From positions 25,338 to 68,481 of the forward strand of contig DAHWFY010000001.1 in NCBI GenBank assembly GCA_027336365.1: DNA of 43,144 nucleotides, read 5' to 3'. The stretch is from Bacillota bacterium. Its GTDB lineage: Bacteria > Bacillota > Bacilli > Alicyclobacillales > Alicyclobacillaceae. The notes under the pieces were generated by a model. The model was given only the letters and a program-made list of their open reading frames with translations, was not told the DNA's origin and ran no database searches. Position 1 is the first letter of the stretch. Every line of letters begins with the position of its first letter. The translations under genes were made by a program, and so were the position numbers. Shown in pieces: positions 21,977 through 43,018 of the stretch.

Positions 21977-22119
21977 CGCTCAAAATGCTCCCTCACGTAC
22001 CAAAAACGTACGGTACGTGGCTCACACCCACCCCCAACCCTCCCCGGTGGGGAGCAGAACCAGAGTGGGGAGAGTGGGCAGACTTCTCGCTCCGTTTGGG
22101 GCTAACCGGACACGCACCT
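21977..22119 (+). repeat. dispersed repeat family B, copy 2
   Basis: The best preserved copy. It has an 8-bp inverted repeat CACGTACC/GGTACGTG (21994-22001, 22012-22019), a second GC hairpin around CTCCCCGGTGGGGAG, and ends in CCGGACACGCACCT. Its last two bases fall in the fabV stop codon, so the element reached exactly to the end of that gene. Confidence 0.6.
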
Positions 22120-23302
22120 AAAGCGTCATCTGTACTTCGGGATTGACCTCTTCATTGTAATCAATCTCGTCGATGTCAAAGCCAAACAGACCCAGAAATT
22201 CCTGTCGGTATTCATCCAAATTGGCCAGAGCAGTCAGATTTTCTTGATTGATGGAGTTCCAAGCGTGGAGAACTTCCGACTGCACATCTGGCCGCATTTC
22301 TTTATCGTCAATCCGAATGCGTCCTTTCTCATCTACGGACTCCGTATCCTTGGCGTACAATCTGTCCGCAAATAGCCGGTACATCTGCTCCACACAACCC
22401 TCGTACAATCCCTTCTCATGCATCACCTTGTACAGGATAGAGATGTACAAGGGAACGACAGGAATGGCGGAACTGGACTGGGTGACCACGGCCTTATTGA
22501 TGGACACAAAAGCTCGCCCACCGATGTTCTGCAGGGAGGCATTCAGGCGGTCGGCAGTGGCCTCCAGGTGGTCTTTTGCTTTTCCAATGGTCCCTTCGCG
22601 GTACATGGGAAAAGTAATTTCCGGTCCAATGTAGGAGTAGGCGACTGTGATGGCGTTATTAGCTAAAACTCCAGCCTCACTCAGTGCCCTGATCCATAGT
22701 TCCCAATCTTCCCCACCCATCACACCGATTGTTTGGCGAATCTCATCGTCATTGGCCGGCTCAAGCGTGACTTGTGAAAGTTTTCCCGTGTTGATGTCAA
22801 TGGTCTTGCTGGTAAACGGCTTACCAATCGGTTTGATAACTGAGAAAAGGGACTCGCCCGTTAGAGGATGAGTTCGTCGAGGGGACGCCAGACTGTAGAC
22901 CACCAGATCTACGGTGCCAAACTGTTTCCGGATGAGGTCAATGGCCTGTTCTTTGATGGCGGTTGAAAAAGCGTCTCCATTGATGTTGAGGGCCACGCGC
23001 CCTGCCACTTTTGCAGCCTGCTCAAAGGCGGCCGTGTTGTACCATCCGGCCGTGGCGGTACGTTTGTCGGTGGCGGGTTTTTCAAAGAAAACGCCTAGCG
23101 TGTCTGCTTTTGCCGCGAAGGTGGCGACAATTCTTGAGGCTAGGCCATAGCCTGTGGAACTGCCAATGACTAAAACCTTTTTGGGTCCTTGTACAGTTTT
23201 CTGTTCACGAGCGTACTGGATTTGACGTTGTACCTGTTTGGCACAGCCGAGAGGGTGGGCGGTGGTGCAGATAAACCCGCGGATTTTTGGCTTGATAATC
23301 AT
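22118..23302 (-). CDS. fabV: trans-2-enoyl-ACP/CoA reductase (NADH), FabV type
   Basis: The 394-residue protein starts MIIKPKIRGFICTTAHPLGC, the FabV family signature, followed by the NADH-binding GSSTGYGLASRI and SLASPRRTHPLTGE. The active site Tyr-x8-Lys appears in MYREGTIGKAK after SYIGPE. FabV reduces trans-2-enoyl thioesters, completing fatty acid elongation, or in some anaerobes works on crotonyl-CoA. The start at 23302 was chosen because AAGGA lies 8 nt upstream and the conserved N terminus begins there; an ATG two codons earlier is too close to that site. The gene stands alone on the minus strand between two plus-strand operons. FabV enzymes are generally resistant to triclosan. Confidence 0.95.
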   Translation of the reverse strand: MIIKPKIRGFICTTAHPLGCAKQVQRQIQYAREQKTVQGPKKVLVIGSSTGYGLASRIVATFAAKADTLGVFFEKPATDKRTATAGWYNTAAFEQAAKVAGRVALNINGDAFSTAIKEQAIDLIRKQFGTVDLVVYSLASPRRTHPLTGESLFSVIKPIGKPFTSKTIDINTGKLSQVTLEPANDDEIRQTIGVMGGEDWELWIRALSEAGVLANNAITVAYSYIGPEITFPMYREGTIGKAKDHLEATADRLNASLQNIGGRAFVSINKAVVTQSSSAIPVVPLYISILYKVMHEKGLYEGCVEQMYRLFADRLYAKDTESVDEKGRIRIDDKEMRPDVQSEVLHAWNSINQENLTALANLDEYRQEFLGLFGFDIDEIDYNEEVNPEVQMTL

Positions 23303-23532
23303 TTTCATTGTCCTTTCCAGTGGCAATATCGACATCCTGAATATCTATTCAATCTTGATAACCATAGTTCCTGAAAGAGGAACGGAGGTTTTCTGAGCCG
23401 ATACTTTAATGCCAATTATACAGGAAGTTCTCCACACTCTGTCCAACAAAACTTCTGTCTGTCATGATTTTGAGCCAAAGTCACTCTCAGGACACAGGGT
23501 GCCTTGCCCTCTGAAGCGGCTTGGGCCTATTG

Positions 23533-23617
23533 TGCAGCTAGCTGCATATTGCGATATTCACCACGCGGTGCAGGAAAATGCTACATTGTAGCGCCGCTGT
23601 AGCGATACATCTGTAGC
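23533..23617 (+). promoter_or_regulatory. candidate upstream activating sites for AcxR
   Basis: TGCAGCTAGCTGCA (23533-23546) and GCTACATTGTAGC (23580-23592) are perfect palindromes, and CTGTAGC is repeated at 23597-23603 and 23611-23617. They lie 65-150 bp upstream of the -24 element, the normal distance for enhancer sites of a sigma-54 activator. Confidence 0.5.
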
Positions 23618-23681
23618 ATAGTCCTCGTAAAAGAGGAAGATGGATCGAGTTCATTCCCAGGGTGGAGTGTGTACTTCTAAA

Positions 23682-23697
23682 TGGCACGGATTTTGCT
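23682..23697 (+). promoter_or_regulatory. sigma-54 (-24/-12) promoter of acxABC
   Basis: TGGCAC (23682-23687), five bases, then TTGCT (23693-23697) matches the sigma-54 consensus, with the invariant GG and GC separated by exactly 10 bases. It lies about 100 bp upstream of the acxA start and in the right orientation. The only sigma-54 activator gene in the window is at the other end of this operon. Confidence 0.88.
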
Positions 23698-23805
23698 AGT
23701 GGTAAGGTAAGCGATTTCAATCGCGGCTCTGACGTGTTCGATTGAGGATAGCCAGTCACCAACGCTTTGCGCATTACTGACCTTGCTTTGAAAGGAGAGA
23801 ATATT

Positions 23806-25956
23806 GTGGGTAACAGGAAAACTCAGATTTTAGCGATTGATGCAGGCGGCACGATGACAGACACTTTTATTATTGATGACAGGGGGGAATTTGTCGTCGG
23901 CAAAGCCCAGACAACTCCTGGGGATGAATCTGTAGGATTACTGTACTCGGCTGAGGACGCCTTGAGTTTATGGAACATGAAAGTTGAGGACGCATTTCCT
24001 CAGTTGCTAACCGGGGTCTATTCCGGCACGGCAATGCTGAACCGCTTGGTGTCCAGAAAAGGACGGAAGGTGGGTTTGATTGTCAATCGGGGCTTGGAGG
24101 ATTTTCATCGTATGGGCCGATCTATTCAATCGTACTTAGGCTACTCTTATTCAGATAGACTGCACATTAACACCCATCGGTATGACCCGCCATTGGTTCC
24201 CAGGGAGTGGACCCGGGGTGTGACAGAGCGGGTGGACCTGTTTGGCAACGTGGTTATTCCGCTGTATGAACAGGAAGTGGCACCAGCGGTGCGAGAACTG
24301 GTAGCTGCGGGTGTAGAAGCCATTGTTATCTCGTTCTTGCACTCTTATAAAAACCCTATCCATGAACGGAGAGCGCGGGATATCGTCCAGGAGACCTTGG
24401 ACACTTTGGAGTCAGACATTCCGATTTTTGCTTCTGTAGACTATTACCCAGTACGCAAGGAAACGCCTCGGACCAATACCACCATTATTGAAGCTTATGC
24501 GGCAGACCCTTCTCGCCGCACGTTGGAACTGGTGAATGAAAGGGTCAAGGAAAAGGGAGCAAACTTTGACATTCGGGTCATGGCGAGCCATGGCGGCACC
24601 ATTAGTATTAAAGCCAACGAACTGGCGCGTACCCTGGTTTCGGGACCCATCGGCGGTGTGGTGGGTGGAAGGTACTTGGGGCAGTCTCTCGGTTTAAAAA
24701 ACATTGTTTGTTCTGACATCGGTGGCACCAGTTTTGACATTGCTCTGATTAATCAAGGGGATTTCAGCATTGATACCAGCCCCGATATGGCTCGTCTGGT
24801 GCTCTCCCTGCCGCTTGTGGCGATGGATTCTGTCGGCGCTGGAACAGGAAGCTTTGTGCGGGTGGACCCCTATACAAAATCTATCGTACTCGGTCCAGAC
24901 AGTGCCGGTTATCGGGTGGGAGTGTGCTATCCAGATGGGGGGTTGGACACCATCACCGTATCCGATTGTCACGTTGTGCTGGGTCTGATTAACCCAAATA
25001 ACTTTCTCGGTGGGCAGGTAAAATTGGACCGTCAACGGGCTTATGACGCAGTCAAAGCGCAATTAGCGGCACCCCTTGGCTTGTCGGTCGAAGCGGCCTC
25101 TTTTGGAGTGATTGAACTACTGGAGGCGCAATTGCGCAATTACCTGGAATCACTGGTCATGGGGAAAGGATATTCTCCCACCCAATTCTCCTGCTTTTCG
25201 TATGGCGGCGGTGGTCCACTACACACGGCAGGTTATGTCAAAGGGTTAGGATTTGAGGACGTGTTGGTACCAGCCTGGGCCGCCGGATTCTCAGCTTTTG
25301 GATGTGGTGCTGCAGACTTCGAGTATCGGTATGACAAGACCCTGGATATTAATGTGGGTTATCAGGCTACGGAAAATGTGCGGGCCGATGCGGCAGAAGC
25401 GTTGCAAGGGGCATGGGACGAACTCACGGAAAAGGTTCGTGATGAGTTTGACAAAAATGGATTTGCAAGTTCGGCTGTCCAATTGAGATTGAATTTTCGC
25501 ATGCAGTACCAGGGTCAGCTGAATGACCTGGAAATTGAATCTCCCCTGGCTGCCTTAAGCGGTGCTACCGATTGGGACAAACTTGCGGACACTTTCGAGG
25601 ATGTTTACGCACGAGTGTACGCCCGTGCTGCACGGTCTCCGGAATTGGGGTATACCGTGACAGGTGCGATTGTACGGGGTTCTGTCGAGATCCCTAAACC
25701 GAAGATTCCAGAAGAACCGTACGAGGGTGAAATTCCGAATACAGCGGCCTTTCAGGGGCAACGCCAGGTGTATTGGGATGGAGAGTTTCTGATGGCGGAT
25801 ATTTGGGAGATGGAGGCTTTAAAAGCGGGCAATCGCGTTCGCGCTTTTGCGGTGATTGAATCCCCGGCCACCACATTTGTGATACCTCCAGGTTTTGAAG
25901 CGGTTCTCGATACACATCGGATATTTCATTTGCGCCAGGTCAGTGAAGGACGATAA
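23806..25956 (+). CDS. acxA: acetone carboxylase beta subunit (HyuA-type hydantoinase/oxoprolinase family)
   Basis: The 716-residue protein is an ASKHA-fold ATPase subunit: phosphate-1 motif ILAIDAGGTMTDTFI at the N terminus and phosphate-2 motif CSDIGGTSFDIALI in the middle, with GRKVGLIVNRGLEDFHRMGR between. In acetone carboxylase this subunit uses ATP (to AMP and two phosphates) to activate bicarbonate and acetone, which condense to acetoacetate. The GTG start at 23806 has AAAGGAGAG 7 nt upstream; the frame is open further upstream but lacks such a site. Order and sizes of the three genes match Xanthobacter acxABC. Acetophenone carboxylase and hydantoinases are relatives, but the downstream acxC settles the acetone carboxylase type. 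Confidence 0.9.
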   Translation: MGNRKTQILAIDAGGTMTDTFIIDDRGEFVVGKAQTTPGDESVGLLYSAEDALSLWNMKVEDAFPQLLTGVYSGTAMLNRLVSRKGRKVGLIVNRGLEDFHRMGRSIQSYLGYSYSDRLHINTHRYDPPLVPREWTRGVTERVDLFGNVVIPLYEQEVAPAVRELVAAGVEAIVISFLHSYKNPIHERRARDIVQETLDTLESDIPIFASVDYYPVRKETPRTNTTIIEAYAADPSRRTLELVNERVKEKGANFDIRVMASHGGTISIKANELARTLVSGPIGGVVGGRYLGQSLGLKNIVCSDIGGTSFDIALINQGDFSIDTSPDMARLVLSLPLVAMDSVGAGTGSFVRVDPYTKSIVLGPDSAGYRVGVCYPDGGLDTITVSDCHVVLGLINPNNFLGGQVKLDRQRAYDAVKAQLAAPLGLSVEAASFGVIELLEAQLRNYLESLVMGKGYSPTQFSCFSYGGGGPLHTAGYVKGLGFEDVLVPAWAAGFSAFGCGAADFEYRYDKTLDINVGYQATENVRADAAEALQGAWDELTEKVRDEFDKNGFASSAVQLRLNFRMQYQGQLNDLEIESPLAALSGATDWDKLADTFEDVYARVYARAARSPELGYTVTGAIVRGSVEIPKPKIPEEPYEGEIPNTAAFQGQRQVYWDGEFLMADIWEMEALKAGNRVRAFAVIESPATTFVIPPGFEAVLDTHRIFHLRQVSEGR

Positions 25957-26028
25957 GGGAACAAAGGAAGCAAGTACGCCTGATGATTTATCAACCTGAC
26001 GATTTATCAATAAGAGGGAGGAAATGTT

Positions 26029-28347
26029 ATGGCCATGCAATCGTCTGATGTCAATCTTAAGCAGGAGGAATTGCTGAATCAGCAGTACAGGCAATCCATT
26101 GGATGGAATGGGAAAACGCTTAAGGAGATGCGCGAAGAAACGGATCGGCTCACAGCGCAGTCCGGGTATTATGCGGGACTTCGCGAATTGGAGTTTAAAC
26201 AATCTGAACCCATTCGTTACGAGAAAATATTTTCTAAGCTGCGGGGTGGGTTGGTCCACGCCCGGGAAACGGCTAAGCGGGTAGCGGCTTCGCCTATTGT
26301 GGAACAGGAAGGGGAGTTGTGTTTTACCCTGTACACTCCGGAGGGGGACAGCATTGTCACTTCCACTGGCATCATCATTCACGTGGGGACCATGGGGTCT
26401 GCCATCAAGTATATGGTGAACCACAACTACGAGGAGAATCCAGGGATTGAACCGGGGGATATCTTTTGCAATAACGATTGCCACATTGGGAATGTTCACC
26501 CCTGTGATGTCCACACCATCGTACCGATTTTTTGGGCTGGTGAGGTGATTGGCTGGGTGGGGGGCGTGACCCACGTCATCGATACAGGTGCCACCGGTCC
26601 TGGCAGTATGACGGTTGGACCTGTCACTCGGTATGACGACGGGTATCAGATTGCCTGTCGCAAAATTGGGCATGACGACATGCTGTTTCAGGATTGGTTG
26701 ATTGAAAGTCAGCGATCCGTCCGCACCACCAAATACTGGTTGCTGGATGAACGCACTCGGATTGCAGGTTGTCACATGATTCGTGACCTCGTGCTTGGTG
26801 TCATCGCTGAAGAGGGTGTGGACACCTACAAGCATTTTTCACGCGAGGTGATTGAAGAAGGGCGTAGGGGTTTGATTAATCGGATCAAGGCGATGACGAT
26901 TCCAGGTCGCTACCGTCAGGTTGGTTTTGTCGATGTACCTTACCGTCACGAGGATGTCGAGGTTCCCCCCTATGCCAAGGTGGATACCATCATGCACGCA
27001 CCTTCAGAAATTGTGATTGACCGCAGTGGCAAAATGTCCTTGGATTTTGATGGCTCGAGCCGCTGGGGTTGGCACAGTTACAACGCGACACCGGTGTCTT
27101 TCACCAGCGGAATTTGGGTGATGATGACGCAAACGCTGATACCGAATGACCGCATTAACGACGGCGCTTACTATGCCACCCAGTTCAACTTGCCCTATGG
27201 GTCTTGGATGAACCCGGACGACATTCGCACGGCGCACAGTTACGCGTGGCACTTCTTAGTGACTGGTTGGAGCCCGTTGTGGCGGGGATTGAGCCGGGCT
27301 TACTTCGCTCGGGGATATTTGGAAGAGGTCAATTCCGGCAATGCAAATACCAGCAATTGGCTACAGGGGGGTGGCTATAACCAGTACGACGAGATGCATG
27401 CGGTAAACAGTTTTGAGGCCGCAGCAGAGGGGACCGGCGCCAGTGCGGTGAAGGATGGGTTGGACAATGCAGCGGCCATCTGGAATCCAGAGGGTGACAT
27501 GGGTGATATGGAAATTTGGGAGTATGCAGAGCCTTTGTTGTATCTGGGCAGAAACTCAAAACCCAATACAGGCGGTTTTGGCAAGTATCGTGGCGGCAAT
27601 GGATATGAGACATTGCGCATGGTGTGGGGGGCCAAAGACTGGACCATGTTTTTCATGGGCAATGGGTATGTGAGCAGTGACTGCGGCATGATGGGTGGAT
27701 ATCCTGCTGCCACCGGTTATCGATTCGAAGCACACCATACGGATTTGGCTGAGCGGTTTGCCAAGCAGTTGTCGTTCCCTCGCGGGGGTGACCCGCGTCC
27801 GGCAGAAAAAGTCTACGAAAAAGACTTGAAGGCGGACGTAAAGCGCGACAAACAGGCAATTACAACTGAGGCTATTTTCGAAAATTACGACCTTTACTTG
27901 AACTATCTGCGGGGAGGTCCGGGTTTTGGCGACCCACTGGAACGCCGACCACAGGACGTGGAAAAGGACCTCAATGGGAACTATTTGTTACCGGAGTTTG
28001 CGCTGAAGGTGTATGGCGTGGTGTTTCAACAGGAGAAAAACGGTCATTATCGCGTTGATGTCGAGCAGACTGCGGCCAAACGCCTGGAAATGCGGCGGGA
28101 GCGTTTGCAGCGGGGTCGTCCGACACACGAATGGATGCGAGAGGAACGGGGGCGGATTTTGAAAGACCAAGCATCGACACAGGTCCGTCACATGTATGCA
28201 ACCAGCTTCGAACTCAGCGAAAGGTTTTTACAGGAGTTCCGCGATTTTTGGGACCTACCCGAGGACTGGAATTTGTACGAAAAGGACTTGGATATGCCGA
28301 CTTTTGGCTCCCATCACCGGGCAGTGAATTCCAATAAAATAGTGTAA
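26029..28347 (+). CDS. acxB: acetone carboxylase alpha subunit (HyuB family)
   Basis: The 772-residue catalytic subunit belongs to the HyuB/oxoprolinase beta family. H157 and D160 in NVHPCDVHT and H182 in GVTHVIDTG have exactly the spacing of the manganese ligands H150, D153 and H175 that I recall for the Xanthobacter enzyme, so the metal site is intact. Other family blocks are GGLNxx-type NSGNANTSNWLQGGGYN and GGFGKYRGGNGYETLRMVW, and the C-terminal YLRGGPGFGDPLERRP. ATG with GGGAGG upstream, 72 bp after acxA. The subunit forms the hexameric complex with AcxA and AcxC, where acetone is carboxylated to acetoacetate. Confidence 0.93.
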   Translation: MAMQSSDVNLKQEELLNQQYRQSIGWNGKTLKEMREETDRLTAQSGYYAGLRELEFKQSEPIRYEKIFSKLRGGLVHARETAKRVAASPIVEQEGELCFTLYTPEGDSIVTSTGIIIHVGTMGSAIKYMVNHNYEENPGIEPGDIFCNNDCHIGNVHPCDVHTIVPIFWAGEVIGWVGGVTHVIDTGATGPGSMTVGPVTRYDDGYQIACRKIGHDDMLFQDWLIESQRSVRTTKYWLLDERTRIAGCHMIRDLVLGVIAEEGVDTYKHFSREVIEEGRRGLINRIKAMTIPGRYRQVGFVDVPYRHEDVEVPPYAKVDTIMHAPSEIVIDRSGKMSLDFDGSSRWGWHSYNATPVSFTSGIWVMMTQTLIPNDRINDGAYYATQFNLPYGSWMNPDDIRTAHSYAWHFLVTGWSPLWRGLSRAYFARGYLEEVNSGNANTSNWLQGGGYNQYDEMHAVNSFEAAAEGTGASAVKDGLDNAAAIWNPEGDMGDMEIWEYAEPLLYLGRNSKPNTGGFGKYRGGNGYETLRMVWGAKDWTMFFMGNGYVSSDCGMMGGYPAATGYRFEAHHTDLAERFAKQLSFPRGGDPRPAEKVYEKDLKADVKRDKQAITTEAIFENYDLYLNYLRGGPGFGDPLERRPQDVEKDLNGNYLLPEFALKVYGVVFQQEKNGHYRVDVEQTAAKRLEMRRERLQRGRPTHEWMREERGRILKDQASTQVRHMYATSFELSERFLQEFRDFWDLPEDWNLYEKDLDMPTFGSHHRAVNSNKIV

Positions 28348-28378
28348 TAAACTCTTATGAGAAAATGAGGTGAGTCGT

Positions 28379-28891
28379 TTGGCAAAATATGACAAAGCAA
28401 CGATTGAAGAGTTAATAGACGGAACCATTGATTTCTTTCAACTCAAGGAGATGCTGTCTTCTTTTAAAGACCCGGGACGGTTTGACACTTACCTGGAAAT
28501 TTTGCAGGAACGAGTGCCCTGGGAAGACCGCATTCTATTGCCATACAGTTTGCACCTGTATGTGGTACAAAAGTCAAACGGTCAGCGTATCATCAAGTGC
28601 GATTGCGGGCATGAGTTTTGCGAGGCACATGACAACTGGAAACTCCATGCTTTGATACATGTGCGGGAAACCGACGAGAAATTGCAGGTGCTGTATCCCG
28701 AACTACTGGCACCAGATCCACAGTGGCAAGTTATTCGGGAATACTATTGCCCTGGTTGCGCCTCCCAGTTAGAGGTGGAGTCGGTAACCCCATGGTATCC
28801 AGTGCTGCATGATTTTGATCCCGATATTGATGGGTTTTATGAGGAATGGTTGGGTCGCCCTGTACCCCAACCTAGCGGAAAGAGTCGGTGA
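28379..28891 (+). CDS. acxC: acetone carboxylase gamma subunit
   Basis: The 170-residue protein matches the acetone carboxylase gamma family along its length: FKDPGRFDTYLEILQERVPWEDRILLP, the cysteine pair region CDCGHEFCEAHDNWKLHA, REYYCPGC, and the conserved end TPWYPVLHDFDPDIDGFYEEWLG. The CxC...C and CxxC groups could bind a zinc ion. The gamma subunit is what separates acetone carboxylases from other HyuA/HyuB enzymes. The TTG at 28379 gives the family N terminus (MAKYDKATIEEL) and follows GAGGTGA by 5 nt; a GTG at 28370 lies inside that site. The operon ends with a clear terminator 83 bp later. Confidence 0.93.
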   Translation: MAKYDKATIEELIDGTIDFFQLKEMLSSFKDPGRFDTYLEILQERVPWEDRILLPYSLHLYVVQKSNGQRIIKCDCGHEFCEAHDNWKLHALIHVRETDEKLQVLYPELLAPDPQWQVIREYYCPGCASQLEVESVTPWYPVLHDFDPDIDGFYEEWLGRPVPQPSGKSR

Positions 28892-29064: not shown

Positions 29065-31128
29065 TCAGGACTTTTCAGTGAGTAACCCATATTTGCGTAA
29101 ACGGCGATAAACCGTTGTTCGCGCAACGCCAAGACGTCGGCTGAGTTCGGACAAGTTTCCTTGGCTTTCTGCTAATAATAGGGATAATCGCTCTCGTTCT
29201 CCGTTGGTATCCGCGACCAACATGCGAAAATTTACATTCTCTTGTGGCAGTGTAAGTGATAAGTTATGAATGCGAGTTGAACCGAAGTCGGCAGGAGTTT
29301 CTTTTCCATCTGGGAGTAGGCCACGGTTTTTCCTGACTTTGTACGATTGGAGTGAGTCGGGAATGTCAGACCAGGTGACCATTCCGTGGTGGCAAAACAG
29401 TACAGCGTGTTCCAAAACATTCCAGAGTTCTCGCACATTACCGGGCCAAGGATACTCATCCCGCAGGAAAGAAAACACATCCGGGCTGAGTAAGGGGGCG
29501 TCCTTTCCGTGTTTATGAGCCAGCACCCGCAGGGCGTGGCGCATCAGCAGCGAAATGTCGTCTCTTCTGTCGCGCAGGGCGGGGAGATTAATAGTGACCA
29601 CATTCAGTCGGTAGTACAGGTCTAAGCGAAAACTCCCTTCGCGAACCTGCTGTTCCAGACTGCGGTGAGTTGCGGCAACAATTCGAACATCCAGGGACAG
29701 AGGACGAGCACCGCCCAAACGTACCACTTCTTTTTCTTGCAAAACCCTCAGCAAATAAACTTGAGCATCCAAAGGTAGCTCGCCAATTTCATCTAGAAGC
29801 AGGGTTCCCCCTTGAGCTTCTTCAAACTTTCCCTTGCGTCCATTACGGACTCCCCCGGTGAAAGTTCCGGGTTCATAGCCGAATAATTCGCTTGCCATCA
29901 ATTCCTTTGGAATGGCTCCGCAATTAACTGCCACGAACGCCTTCGTACGGCGGACCCCGCTTTCGTGAATGGCATGAGCGAATAATTCTTTTCCAGTTCC
30001 ACTTTCCCCTTGAAGGAGAACAGGCACCTCTGATTGAGCCACAACATCTCCCTGCTTGATGGCAGACAATAAGGATGGACTTTCGCCGATGACCTGTGCC
30101 CAAGGCCCTTGTTTCTGTATCGTCTTCGACACCAGATGTTGTGGAGAAATGACGAGAATGAATCCAGCACGATGATTTGCATAGGGTACGGAGAATAGGT
30201 GAGCAGCCACCCAGTCCAACGCCGGAAGAGGAACAATGTCGGATTGATTTTCACCCTGGCTGAGATGTTGTTGTAGGATGCGTTGGTGTAATTGGACGGC
30301 ATCCCACACTTGAGACAGGGGTATCCCCTTTCTTTCCACAGCGAATTGTTGGGCAATCTGATTGGATTCAACCAGTCGACACGTGGCGTCAATGGCGATA
30401 ACGCCGTTGCCCGGGTAACGACGGCAAGTGTCTAGATATTGGTCTATTAACTGCATGCGAGTTTGCACGGACTGGTAATACAGGCGCTCTTCAATCAGCT
30501 TAGAAGCTGTTCCGACAAATCCAGCCGTATGGGTCTGAGCATGATGCCACAGTCCAGTGACATCAATGACTCCCAACAATGTGTGAGTCAAAGGGTCACG
30601 GACGGGAGCAGCCGAACACACCCAATCGTGAACACCGCTGCAAAAGTGTTCGGCGGCGAAAACCTGCACGGGTTGTTTCAGAGTCAAACAGGTCCCAATG
30701 GCATTGGTACCGATGGCCTCCTCGCTCCAATCGGCACCCACTGCGAAATTCATCAAAGCAGCTTGACGCAACACTTGAGGATCTCCGTCAAGGTACAGGA
30801 TTCTACCCTTGCGGTCACTGAGTGTCAGCAAATACCCGGTGTGCTGAGCGTGAGTACTCATTTCCCGCAGAACAGGTAGGGCATACTCATACAGGTGAGA
30901 AGTTTGCAGAAGAGCTCTCACTTCTTCGGAATTCAGTGACGTATCCGTTTGAGTTTTGAGAGGATTAAGTCCCTGAGCAAGACAGCGCTTCCAGGAAGTT
31001 TGCACAAAGGAGCGCACTCGCAGTGAGGTCTCCGAGTTTTCAAGAAATCGAATCCAGTTCTTTTCAGTGCTTTGGCGGTGTTCTTGCAAGTTGTCAGGTT
31101 TCAGGTCAAGAAACTCCGAAAACGGCAT
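29065..31128 (-). CDS. acxR: sigma-54-dependent activator, AcoR/AcxR type
   Basis: The 687-residue protein has an AcoR-like N-terminal region with a GAF-type sensor (HTGYLLTLSDRKGRILYLDGDPQVL and GTNAIGTCLTLKQPVQVFAAEHFC), a central AAA+ domain, and a C-terminal Fis-type helix-turn-helix (LSELSRRLGVARTTVYRRLRKYGLL). The AAA+ part shows Walker A GESGTGKE (about residue 372) and Walker B GGTLLLDEIGELP. The sigma-54 contact loop reads GTFTGG instead of the usual GAFTGA. It is convergent with acxABC and probably activates the sigma-54 promoter at 23682, as AcxR does in Xanthobacter. The ATG at 31128 follows AAGGAG; 28 extra upstream residues are open but lack a ribosome binding site. Confidence 0.92.
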   Translation of the reverse strand: MPFSEFLDLKPDNLQEHRQSTEKNWIRFLENSETSLRVRSFVQTSWKRCLAQGLNPLKTQTDTSLNSEEVRALLQTSHLYEYALPVLREMSTHAQHTGYLLTLSDRKGRILYLDGDPQVLRQAALMNFAVGADWSEEAIGTNAIGTCLTLKQPVQVFAAEHFCSGVHDWVCSAAPVRDPLTHTLLGVIDVTGLWHHAQTHTAGFVGTASKLIEERLYYQSVQTRMQLIDQYLDTCRRYPGNGVIAIDATCRLVESNQIAQQFAVERKGIPLSQVWDAVQLHQRILQQHLSQGENQSDIVPLPALDWVAAHLFSVPYANHRAGFILVISPQHLVSKTIQKQGPWAQVIGESPSLLSAIKQGDVVAQSEVPVLLQGESGTGKELFAHAIHESGVRRTKAFVAVNCGAIPKELMASELFGYEPGTFTGGVRNGRKGKFEEAQGGTLLLDEIGELPLDAQVYLLRVLQEKEVVRLGGARPLSLDVRIVAATHRSLEQQVREGSFRLDLYYRLNVVTINLPALRDRRDDISLLMRHALRVLAHKHGKDAPLLSPDVFSFLRDEYPWPGNVRELWNVLEHAVLFCHHGMVTWSDIPDSLQSYKVRKNRGLLPDGKETPADFGSTRIHNLSLTLPQENVNFRMLVADTNGERERLSLLLAESQGNLSELSRRLGVARTTVYRRLRKYGLLTEKS

Positions 31129-31592
31129 AGAAACGCACTCCTTGTCACACGATTCAACTGGGACGATGATTTCGGTAGAGGCAGCAGCAATTTGTGCGGG
31201 ACAGGCCATCATGCCGCTACTAGCGGCATCAACAGAGAACGCAAATATACGTGACCGTATTTACTGGCTAGAGACGGACATTCATCAGAAGTGATTGAAA
31301 ATATTTAGATAATTATCGATGTAACTTCAAGAAGTAAACAAAGATTCTGTGCTGATGATTGTTCTAATACAGGGATCATATCATAGATACAATTTTCTGA
31401 ACAGACTCTGTCACATTACTCCTGCTTTTGGGATCGATTCGTGCGTAAAAATCAAGAAAATTATCTGTACACGCCGCACTTATGAAAAACTTCCCCATGC
31501 CAAGGGAGAGTACAAAGGATTTCCCCCTTGGCGGTTACTTATTTTCACGGTTGTATGGCTTCTTCGTGTGTGTCCAACAGCCAACCTGTGGC
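31129..31592. other. intergenic region upstream of acxR
   Basis: AT-rich region with no convincing gene. It carries a family A repeat at 31211-31267, in what should be the acxR leader, and a GCCAAGGG/CCCTTGGC stem at 31499-31532. Confidence 0.6.
31211..31267 (+). repeat. family A two-hairpin repeat, copy 3
   Basis: Full copy with hairpin 1 TGCCGCT, loop ACT, AGCGGCA. Hairpin 2 is weaker (GCAAAT against ATTTAC). It ends in CTGG like the other copies. It lies 82 bp upstream of the acxR start codon. Confidence 0.85.
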
Positions 31593-38296: not shown

Positions 38297-38924
38297 AAAA
38301 TTCATCACTCCTGTGTGTTATGACTTGAATTCATTCTCGTATAACATTGGTAGTAACTATATTACCGAAAGTAGTAGCTCAAATGCAAATCTAAATCCCC
38401 ATGCCTCTGCGGAGCACAAGATTATAGTGAAAATAATGGACAGCTACTTTCTCATCAAAAGTTACATTCACACGTCTTGTTTGAACGGTGGACTGGTTTT
38501 TGACAAGTCCTCACAGAGTGTGTGACCAAAGTTCTGAGTGGCACTTCTGACTCGATTGAGGCATTGACGAGGTTCCCAGAAATGAGTAGACTAGTCGGCG
38601 GAACATGAACTCGTATAATGCCAAGAATGTGGCTTGGCAGTTTCTACCGGTCGACCGTGAATCGTCCGACTACGAGGCTGATGTCGATGGTTAAACACAA
38701 CGAGGCAGTTTCCCCATACGTCCTTACGTCTCATCTCAGTAGGATTCATATCAGAATTTCGGGTGGGATTGGCGGACGATAGGAACACTGCTTATTTTCG
38801 TTGATAGGACAACCTGGCACCTCGAGTCGCGACTTCCTTCGCTTTGCAAGGAGTCCCTTCGGGAGCCGGGTTTTGTTGTTTTTGCAAGTTGTGGGTAAGA
38901 ATAGATTGAGGAGGAATGGAGAAG
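38297..38924. other. long intergenic region upstream of NCS1 permease
   Basis: About 630 bases between divergent genes without a convincing ORF. The part from 38800 to 38900 shows a bulged stem (GACTTCCTT with AAGGAGTC), a small CCCTTCGGG hairpin and a T-rich tail (GGGTTTTGTTGTTTTT), about 35 bp before the permease start, which could be an attenuator-like leader. Nothing else is recognised. Confidence 0.5.
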
Positions 38925-40433
38925 ATGTCACGGGGAAAGCCCAATGTTCGACAGTTTGTCACCAGAGATGTGACTGTCCCAGGTGAGAGGACGACTTCAC
39001 AGGTAGATGCAGCGTTTCGTCTCGAGACAGAGGGAACCGGCGTGATTATTCAGGAGCGTCGACACGGTCACCCGCGGGAACTGTTTTTTGTTTGGTTTGC
39101 GGCCGTCCTCACATTTACAGGCGTTATCATGGGACAATTATTTACGAGTCTTGGACTGAATATCTGGGAGTCCTTATTGGCCGCAGTGTTGTGTTCTGTT
39201 TCGTTTGTGGCTTTAGGTTGGGTGGCCGCCACTGGACCCAAGGCGGGCACCGTTACTCTGACGATTTCCCGAGCCGCCTTTGGTACCCGAGGCAATCGAG
39301 TACCCGCCTTTTTCAGTTGGCTTTCAGCCGTGGGGTGGGAAAGTGTCACGATGGTCTTGACCGTCTGGGCTCTACTCAGTTTGGCTCAATTTGTGGGATT
39401 GCCTTCTCAAGGTACTGTGGCCACGGTGCTTGCGCTTTTACTGACCATTGCTTTCACCTATTTCGTTCCCATTATGGGTCATGCCACAGTTATCACCATG
39501 CAGAAGTGGTTAGCCATAGCCCTGGGTGTGTTTGGAATTGTGTTGGTGATTGCTGTGTTTCCTCATGTGAATTGGCACTTTGCACCTCCTGTGAAAGACA
39601 TGGCGGCCGATGGAGCTTTTCCCACCTTCCTGCTGGCGTTGTCTGTGGGACTTATTACCACCGTGTACGGGTGGATTAACTTTGCGGCAGATTATTCCCG
39701 ATACTTGCCGGAGCATACTTCCTCTCGGAAGATTGTTGGCTGGACTTTGGTGGGCGGCGGCATTGCTTCTATGGTTGTCATGACCATCGGGGTGTTGTTG
39801 GGAACTTACATTAGCAACTCGGCGTTTTCCGCCAATCCGGTCATGGCGATTGCCAAGGCGGTGCCTGCTTGGGCTGCCATTCCATTTTTACTGGTGGTGG
39901 TGATTGGGGACATCACGGCCAATTATCTCAATGCGTACAGTTCGGGAATGAGTTTTTTGTCCATGGGAGTGCCCATGAAACGATTCTTGGCTGTGGTTTT
40001 GGATGGAACGCTGTCCACCTTAATTGCTCTATATGCCTTATTCCTGTCTCCGGGATTTGTAAATTTCTTCGAGAACTTCTTGAGTTTAAACATCTTGGTC
40101 ATCGGTCCTTGGGCAACTATCTATTTGATTCATCACCGGATGATTGGGGGTAAGTATGATACGGCTGGGCTGATGAACAATGGATCTACGGGTACCTATT
40201 GGTACAGAAATGGAATTAATTGGAGAGCAATGACTGCTTTTATCATCGGGGTTGCGGGGACGTTTTGGACTGTGAACAGCGCTCTATGGGTAAGTCCTTT
40301 GAGCAAAGATTTATTTGGTGGAGCCGATCTTAGTGCATACGCTGCTCCTGTAATTACCGGTCTGATTTATTATTTACTGAATCTCAAACGGCAACCCACG
40401 GTCACTGTTGCCAAGAAGTCTTACAACGCCTAA
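38925..40433 (+). CDS. NCS1 family permease (cytosine/purine/hydantoin type)
   Basis: The 502-residue protein has about 12 membrane segments and the NCS1 layout: a hydrophilic N terminus, then FFVWFAAVLTFTGVIMGQLF in segment 1, an Ala-rich ISRAAFGTRGNRVPAFFSWLSAVGWESV around segment 3, the NFAADYSRYLPEHTSSRKIVGWT loop, and LNAYSSGMSFLSMGVPMKR later. NCS1 carriers import nucleobases, allantoin, hydantoins or thiamine with H+ or Na+; the substrate cannot be read. The next gene is a class V aminotransferase that could be an ureidoglycine- or alanine-glyoxylate enzyme, a weak hint of purine or allantoin catabolism. ATG 38925 has GGAGG 10 nt upstream; an ATG at 38916 is too close to that site. Confidence 0.88.
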   Translation: MSRGKPNVRQFVTRDVTVPGERTTSQVDAAFRLETEGTGVIIQERRHGHPRELFFVWFAAVLTFTGVIMGQLFTSLGLNIWESLLAAVLCSVSFVALGWVAATGPKAGTVTLTISRAAFGTRGNRVPAFFSWLSAVGWESVTMVLTVWALLSLAQFVGLPSQGTVATVLALLLTIAFTYFVPIMGHATVITMQKWLAIALGVFGIVLVIAVFPHVNWHFAPPVKDMAADGAFPTFLLALSVGLITTVYGWINFAADYSRYLPEHTSSRKIVGWTLVGGGIASMVVMTIGVLLGTYISNSAFSANPVMAIAKAVPAWAAIPFLLVVVIGDITANYLNAYSSGMSFLSMGVPMKRFLAVVLDGTLSTLIALYALFLSPGFVNFFENFLSLNILVIGPWATIYLIHHRMIGGKYDTAGLMNNGSTGTYWYRNGINWRAMTAFIIGVAGTFWTVNSALWVSPLSKDLFGGADLSAYAAPVITGLIYYLLNLKRQPTVTVAKKSYNA

Positions 40434-40470
40434 CCTCTGTTGTGGAGATGAACCTTTCTGCGTTGCCTAT

Positions 40471-40670
40471 CCAGTAAATACAAGTTTGTGGATTTACATT
40501 CCCTGTTGGTGCCGCTATCAGCGGCATGGCGGTCTATCCAGTAAATACAGGTTCGTGGATTTACCTTCCCTGCTGGTGCCGCTATCAGCGGCATGACGGT
40601 CTATCCAGTAAAACAATTGCGTGGATTTACATCCCTTGCTGATGCCGCTCACAGCGGCATGTGGGTCTAT
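40471..40670 (-). repeat. family A array: three tandem 67-nt units
   Basis: Units at 40471-40537 (67 nt), 40538-40604 (67 nt) and 40605-40670 (66 nt) follow one another without spacers. On the minus strand each reads ATAGACCGCC-like, then hairpin 1 (TGCCGCT, 3-nt loop, AGCGGCA), a linker CAGCAGGGAA, and hairpin 2 (GTAAAT, about 12-nt loop, ATTTAC) ending CTGG. The loop bases differ between units (GAT, GAT, GTG in hairpin 1) while the stem bases do not. Confidence 0.95.
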
Positions 40671-42599: not shown

Positions 42600-43018
42600 T
42601 GAAAATCCTCCCCTCGCTCGTAAGTTTATTGCAAGTAGAAAATGGAATCAAGAGTGTGGAGGCGTGCGGGAGGGTGTGGTCATCGTGTGGGGGAGGGCAG
42701 AAAAGCGTGGGGATAGACTCTCATGCCGCTGTTAGCGGCATCAGCAAGGGACGTAAATGCACGTTATTGTATTTACTGGGATAGACCGCCATGCCGCTGA
42801 TAGCGGCACCAGCAGGGAAGGTAAATCCACGTGATTGTATTTACTGGTTAGGAGAGTAGGTTCAGGTCAAGTGCATCTCTTTCCAGTGCAGATAAGCTTT
42901 TCAAACTTGTATAAGTTTCCCCAAGTGGGAACAGGTGAGTTACGTTAAAAAGGCGAACTTTTTCATCGTGGGAAAAGCATGTTTAAAAAAACATGAGCAC
43001 GAGGAAGGAGTTCCACCT
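42600..43018. other. intergenic region with two family A repeats and AT-rich palindromes
   Basis: No gene is seen. After the two repeats come AAACTTGTATAAGTTT (42904-42919), an interrupted GTTTCCC/GGGAAC repeat just behind it, and CATGTTTAAAAAAACATG (42979-42996). These lie upstream of the lipoprotein gene and may be promoter or operator parts. Confidence 0.6.
42713..42847 (+). repeat. family A array: two 67-nt units
   Basis: Units at 42713-42779 and 42781-42847, both 67 nt and separated by one G. They have the same parts as the array at 40471 but in the opposite orientation. Hairpin 1 loops are GTT and GAT. Confidence 0.95.

Follow-up and report, generated by a model that had tools for sequence, protein, structure and literature searches.

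The acetone carboxylase locus

We analysed a stretch of 43,144 nucleotides (the window) from a Bacillota bacterium of the family Alicyclobacillaceae. It carries three acetone carboxylase subunit genes in the order acxA, acxB, acxC, which match acx loci of other bacteria over nearly their full length. The fabV gene is divergent from acxA, and the 470-base intergenic region between them holds TGGCACGGATTTTGCT. Downstream of acxC, in convergent orientation, lies acxR, which bears out the first-pass annotation in placing the activator gene within the locus. The features are as follows:

22118-23335, minus strand: fabV, divergent from acxA
23579-23593, plus strand: predicted AcxR operator A, TGCTACATTGTAGCG; half sites perfect, centre one base under consensus length
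23598-23604, plus strand: lone operator half site TGTAGCG, from the sequence
23603-23618, plus strand: predicted AcxR operator B, CGATACATCTGTAGCA; differs from CGCTACANNTGTAGCG at two positions and begins 79 bp ahead of the -24 box
23682-23697, plus strand: -24/-12 (sigma-54) promoter TGGCACGGATTTTGCT, from reading of the sequence, script and comparison
23706-23724, plus strand: predicted transcription start (~23707-23708), placed from the -12 position, and the conserved first transcribed bases GTAAGCGATTTCA, from alignment with I2511
23786 to ~28965: apparent recombination tract, aligned with 3091 to ~8250 of locus L019 (strain I2511); acxABC nearly identical, flanking fabV, control region and acxR diverged
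23806-25956, plus strand: acxA, acetone carboxylase subunit, hydantoinase A family (PF01968); GTG start backed by homologue alignment
26029-28347, plus strand: acxB, acetone carboxylase subunit, hydantoinase B family (PF02538), by family match
28370-28891, plus strand: acxC, acetone carboxylase gamma subunit (PF08882), by family match
29065-31212, minus strand: acxR, sigma-54 activator with a DhaR-like N-terminal stretch, an AAA+ domain (GTFTGG loop) and a Fis-type helix-turn-helix (HTH)

Among the matches listed, Alicyclobacillaceae bacterium I2511 has the closest named acx locus. Identity to this strain is 93.5% over the 5.4 kb of acxABC, against 76-78% in fabV and acxR; the high identity starts at the acxA ribosome-binding site and fades ~70 bases past acxC. 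At four-fold sites the two strains are 82% identical in acxA, 88% in acxB, 91% in acxC and 49% in acxR, and in acxA and acxB either strain shares only 29-35% with A. contaminans. A recent recombination thus seems, from these alignments, to have replaced the enzyme genes acxABC while the control region and regulator remained native. Separately, a 16-base unit stands in two tandem copies between acxA and acxB (25979-26010).

A probable sigma-54 promoter upstream of acxA

A consensus -24/-12 promoter with a 10-base GG-to-GC spacing had been proposed about 100 bp before acxA, and it was confirmed both by direct reading and by script. The motif TGGCAC-N5-TTGC occupies 23682-23696, with GG at 23683-23684, GC at 23695-23696 and exactly 10 bases between them. 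The full consensus TGGCACGGATTTTGCT lies 109-124 bp 5′ of the acxA start codon (GTG, 23806). Exact TGGCAC-N5-TTGC occurs only once across both strands of the window, and one further site has a single mismatch. When the 400 bp upstream of acxA were shuffled 200 times, no shuffle equalled their top -24/-12 score. No riboswitch or other known RNA was found in the acxA leader with Rfam.

The promoter is also widely conserved. For comparison, 80 of 266 relatives were retained; three loci in which acxA was missing or truncated (L021, L038, L062) were then removed, giving a set of 78 acx loci whose acxA start is intact: 34 Firmicute loci, window included, and 44 others, a split assigned from record titles. 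The promoter scan ran without the short loci L009-L018, among which L015-L018 are the acx genes of genomes not otherwise covered. With a weight table whose bit values are approximate, a -24/-12 site scoring 10 bits or more was found 5′ of acxA in 33 of the 34 Firmicute loci and 41 of the 44 others, the exceptions being L027, L041, L046 and L079. Most of these sites are exact or near-exact copies of TGGCA[CT]-N5-TTGC. In the same-genus strain I2511, TGGCAC and TTGCTA are both kept and aligned within intergenic DNA that is otherwise only 41-49% identical. The proposal that a Firmicute carries a circuit similar to the Proteobacterial one is supported, and the circuit is no lone oddity: the promoter recurs in 33/34 Firmicute loci and the operator described below in 26/34.

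Predicted operators upstream of the promoter

The first-pass annotation had also pointed to perfect palindromes and CTGTAGC repeats 65-150 bp upstream of the promoter. All are present, at 65-149 bp from the -24 box: the palindromes TGCAGCTAGCTGCA (23533-23546) and GCTACATTGTAGC (23580-23592), and CTGTAGC at 23597-23603 and 23611-23617. Perfect palindromes are common in the window (14-bp palindromes five times, 13-bp odd ones 18 times). By themselves they would thus be weak evidence, and their weight comes only from comparison with other loci.

This comparison yielded the consensus CGCTACANNTGTAGCG, drawn from the upstream regions of I2511, A. contaminans, A. pomorum and Sulfoacidibacillus, where it often stands in tandem. 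Within 400 bp of the promoter and with up to three mismatches, CGCTACANNTGTAGCG occurs in 26 of 34 Firmicute upstream regions vs 1 of 44 others. Removing the four loci that defined the consensus leaves 22 of 30, and each of 20 shuffled sets gave only 0-1 of 34. When the search was widened to 700 bp, two of the other loci qualified (L074 and L088). A de novo dyad search independently returned CTACA-N2-TGTAG in 12 of 34 Firmicute upstream regions, with a maximum of four in 20 shuffled sets. Non-Firmicute acxA upstream regions have a different leading dyad, GTCCG-N5-CGGAC (9/44), possibly the operator of Proteobacterial AcxR.

Read against this consensus, the CTGTAGC repeats and one palindrome appear as degenerate copies of the operator, which we designate the predicted operators A and B. 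Their offset of ~24 bp is that of the two I2511 operators (226 and 202 bases before acxA). The window's operators are poorer than those in most relatives, with two mismatches in B and a centre one base short in A, and a chance match to CGCTACANNTGTAGCG at up to three mismatches is expected in a window of such size (mean 0.87). The palindrome at 23580-23592 matches the operator. The one at 23533-23546 is not conserved (in each of the 30 other Firmicute upstream regions tested, its best match has at least three mismatches) and probably lies outside the circuit. A genome-wide search for GCTACANNTGTAGC with up to one mismatch found five places vs nine for the control, giving no sign of further AcxR targets.

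Operator position provides a further line of evidence. In 17 loci, operator-to-promoter distances were 67, 67, 77, 78, 78, 79, 79, 88, 88, 89, 99, 100, 100, 112, 112, 112 and 137 bp. This set comprised loci with at most two mismatches and distances up to 150 bp, leaving out L020 (215), L029 (286), L067 (170) and L068 (276), as well as L027 (promoter below 10 bits). The distances cluster in ~11 bp steps (R=0.87), and none of 20,000 random sets was as high when related rows are counted as independent. The period that fits best, 11.25-11.5, exceeds 10.5, and the window's own distance of 79 bp falls on a step.

The activator AcxR

AcxR exceeds the cut-off for two domains, the AAA+ sigma-54 interaction domain (PF00158, 219.9 bits) and the Fis-type HTH (PF02954, 31.6 bits). 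Residues 129-208 match DhaR (4lrx, E 3.6e-5), and the DhaR model can be aligned over most of the protein. Unlike DhaR, however, AcxR scores 310 bits against a model cut-off of 551 and is linked to acxABC rather than to dihydroxyacetone kinase. From the linked enzyme, we infer that its signal is acetone or isopropanol. Over GNLSELSRRLGVARTTVYRRLRK[YH]GLL, the HTH ends of AcxR from the window and from I2511 differ by one residue.

The sigma-54-contact loop of AcxR reads GTFTGG, a double variant of GAFTGA. Among 32 Firmicute AcxR rows, GTFTGG occurs in 19, GTFTGA in four, GAFTGA in three, GAFTGG in three and three other forms once each. Of 44 non-Firmicute rows, 43 have GAFTGA, as do all eight paralogues read from the window's genome. 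As a control, 40 activator domains from the family were hand-picked from listed places, one of which gave no readable loop; the only GTFTGG and GTFTGA among them belong to the two beside acx in genomes G001 and G023, and two further activator domains close to acx, in G010 and G028, carry GAFTGA. PMC4641369, in the parts available, describes GAFTGA variants including GAFTGG and GSFTGA as compatible with function. Neither GTFTGG nor GTFTGA turned up in the literature text searched.

In a tree of AcxR, the 30 Firmicute rows group in a clade of their own, as do the 36 Pseudomonadota rows. The two clades sit together, as orthology with the Xanthobacter-type AcxR would have it, in a tree with long branches and one paralogue as the sole close outgroup. 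The tree was made without L029, L031, L086, L090 and L091, plus paralogues L118 and L124; L123 is the window's own gene. A recent transfer of the circuit from Proteobacteria is not favoured, because Firmicute AcxR forms its own clade. A bolder reading of the same data is that Firmicute AcxR is a distinct sub-lineage with an altered sigma-54-contact loop and its own phased operator, the loop perhaps being tuned to the Bacillota sigma-54 or to the acx promoter in a way that avoids cross-activation of other sigma-54 genes. We regard this as an unlikely account.

Sigma-54 capacity of the genome

A check for rpoN had been set beforehand as a refuting test, and its outcome was divided. On one side, no rpoN match was found in the assembly, either by sigma-54 family or by a same-genus protein. 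On the other, the assembly is 83% complete in 366 contigs (3.14 Mb), and 52 of 61 genomes searched have an rpoN match, the same-genus genome G001 included. In G001, rpoN directly precedes a conserved block; in the window's genome, contig C353 carries this block from base 197 onward. The first 47 bases of C353 are a dispersed repeat, the contig break adjoins the usual place of rpoN, and the first 196 bases encode no rpoN tail. Either a repeat was inserted at C353 or gene order changed there.

The rest of the assembly speaks to sigma-54 function. It holds 12 sigma-54 activator domains, and TGGCACN5TTGCW occurs 19 times vs twice for the reversed control. Six of these 19 consensus promoters lie 0.5-0.9 kb from an activator domain (contigs C45, C122, C155, C188, C316 and C364), two lie 2.3-2.6 kb away (C301), the window's own 5.9 kb and one 8.5 kb (C188); the remaining nine are on contigs without any of the 12 domains. 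Together, these sequence counts argue for a working sigma-54. The missing rpoN is best explained by assembly gaps, and we infer its presence in the window's genome itself.

It is improbable that rpoN has been lost and that the control region is a relic, with acxABC either silent or transcribed from an unrecognised housekeeping promoter. Such a loss would fit the failure of both searches and a contig beside the place of rpoN that opens with repeat DNA not encoding the gene. The family may also have seen such losses: neither an rpoN match nor an activator is present in G006 or G011, and G019, which is 100% complete, has no sigma-54 match, yet retains three activator domains, possibly through recent rpoN loss or an assembly gap. 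However, the window's genome has 12 activator domains where the rpoN-less G006 and G011 have none, its consensus promoters far outnumber the control, and rpoN is present in the same genus. The incomplete assembly also breaks at a dispersed repeat exactly at rpoN's place, and no sigma-70-type promoter was found in 23300-23830.

A model for acxABC control and its relation to known systems

We consider it very probable, on the sequence comparisons above, that a sigma-54 switch run by the linked activator AcxR stands before acxABC. The sigma-54 promoter for acxABC would be the one in the fabV-acxA intergenic region. The N-terminal sensor of AcxR would detect the substrate or a related signal, and AcxR would bind the operator pair A (23579-23593) and B (23603-23618), ~65-105 bp upstream and always on the same side of the helix. 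From there, it could reach the sigma-54 polymerase at 23682-23697 via DNA looping and melt the promoter by ATP hydrolysis, such that acetone carboxylase would be made only when needed. That the operators instead serve another gene, such as the divergent fabV, and that only the promoter belongs to acxA is very improbable: fabV and acxA do share the intergenic space, but the same operator is found 5′ of acxA across Firmicutes whether the regulator gene is upstream or downstream, and its distances are phased to the acxA promoter.

Sigma-54 control of acxABC in Proteobacteria, which the first-pass annotation took as known, was reportedly first described for Xanthobacter in a 2002 paper by Sluis. 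The switch proposed here would combine sigma-54, an AcxR activator and the same enzyme genes.

For Xanthobacter autotrophicus Py2, AcxR/sigma-54 control of these genes is indeed stated in the available text of PMC2244623. Firmicute AcxR differs from that of Xanthobacter in forming a separate clade, mostly with a GTFTGG loop, and in its operator CGCTACANNTGTAGCG, absent from 43/44 non-Firmicute upstream regions. For acxRABC of Cupriavidus metallidurans CH34, the sections available of PMC2864759 deduce sigma-54 control from a GAFTGA motif together with a promoter. That system likewise has a promoter, TGGCATGNNNNTTGC, before its acxA and a linked sigma-54 activator; there, however, the regulator gene stands ahead of acxABC, is oriented the opposite way and has a GAFTGA loop, whereas in the window it is convergent and downstream with GTFTGG. 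Within Firmicutes, the sigma-54 regulons of Clostridiales (PMC6615313, as far as its text was available) offer Fis-HTH activators and dyad operators of a similar kind. In that survey AcoR targets acoABCL, and the word acetone is absent from the main text as available. In a 2025 survey of sigma-54 regulons (PMC12316311), acetone is absent as a word start.

No Firmicute acetone-carboxylase sigma-54 circuit was seen in literature searches, in which most papers were represented by their listings. Thus, the kind of circuit is known in Proteobacteria, and its widespread Firmicute form, with its own operator and loop, is new as far as searched. Sigma-54 control of acetone carboxylase would then span at least two phyla, and Firmicute acetone carboxylase genes gain a concrete, testable circuit of promoter, operator and activator. 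In another vein, the conserved double change in the AcxR loop is a natural variant for mechanism studies.

Other features of the window

A purine riboswitch (38591-38692, 71 bits), the sole Rfam match in the window, lies upstream of an open reading frame at 38916-40433. A dispersed repeat of ~67 bases, parts of which are self-complementary, forms short tandem runs at 40467-40670 and 42710-42847 and also opens contig C353. A 200-base query holding the 47-base part of this repeat gave 59 matches in the genome in all.
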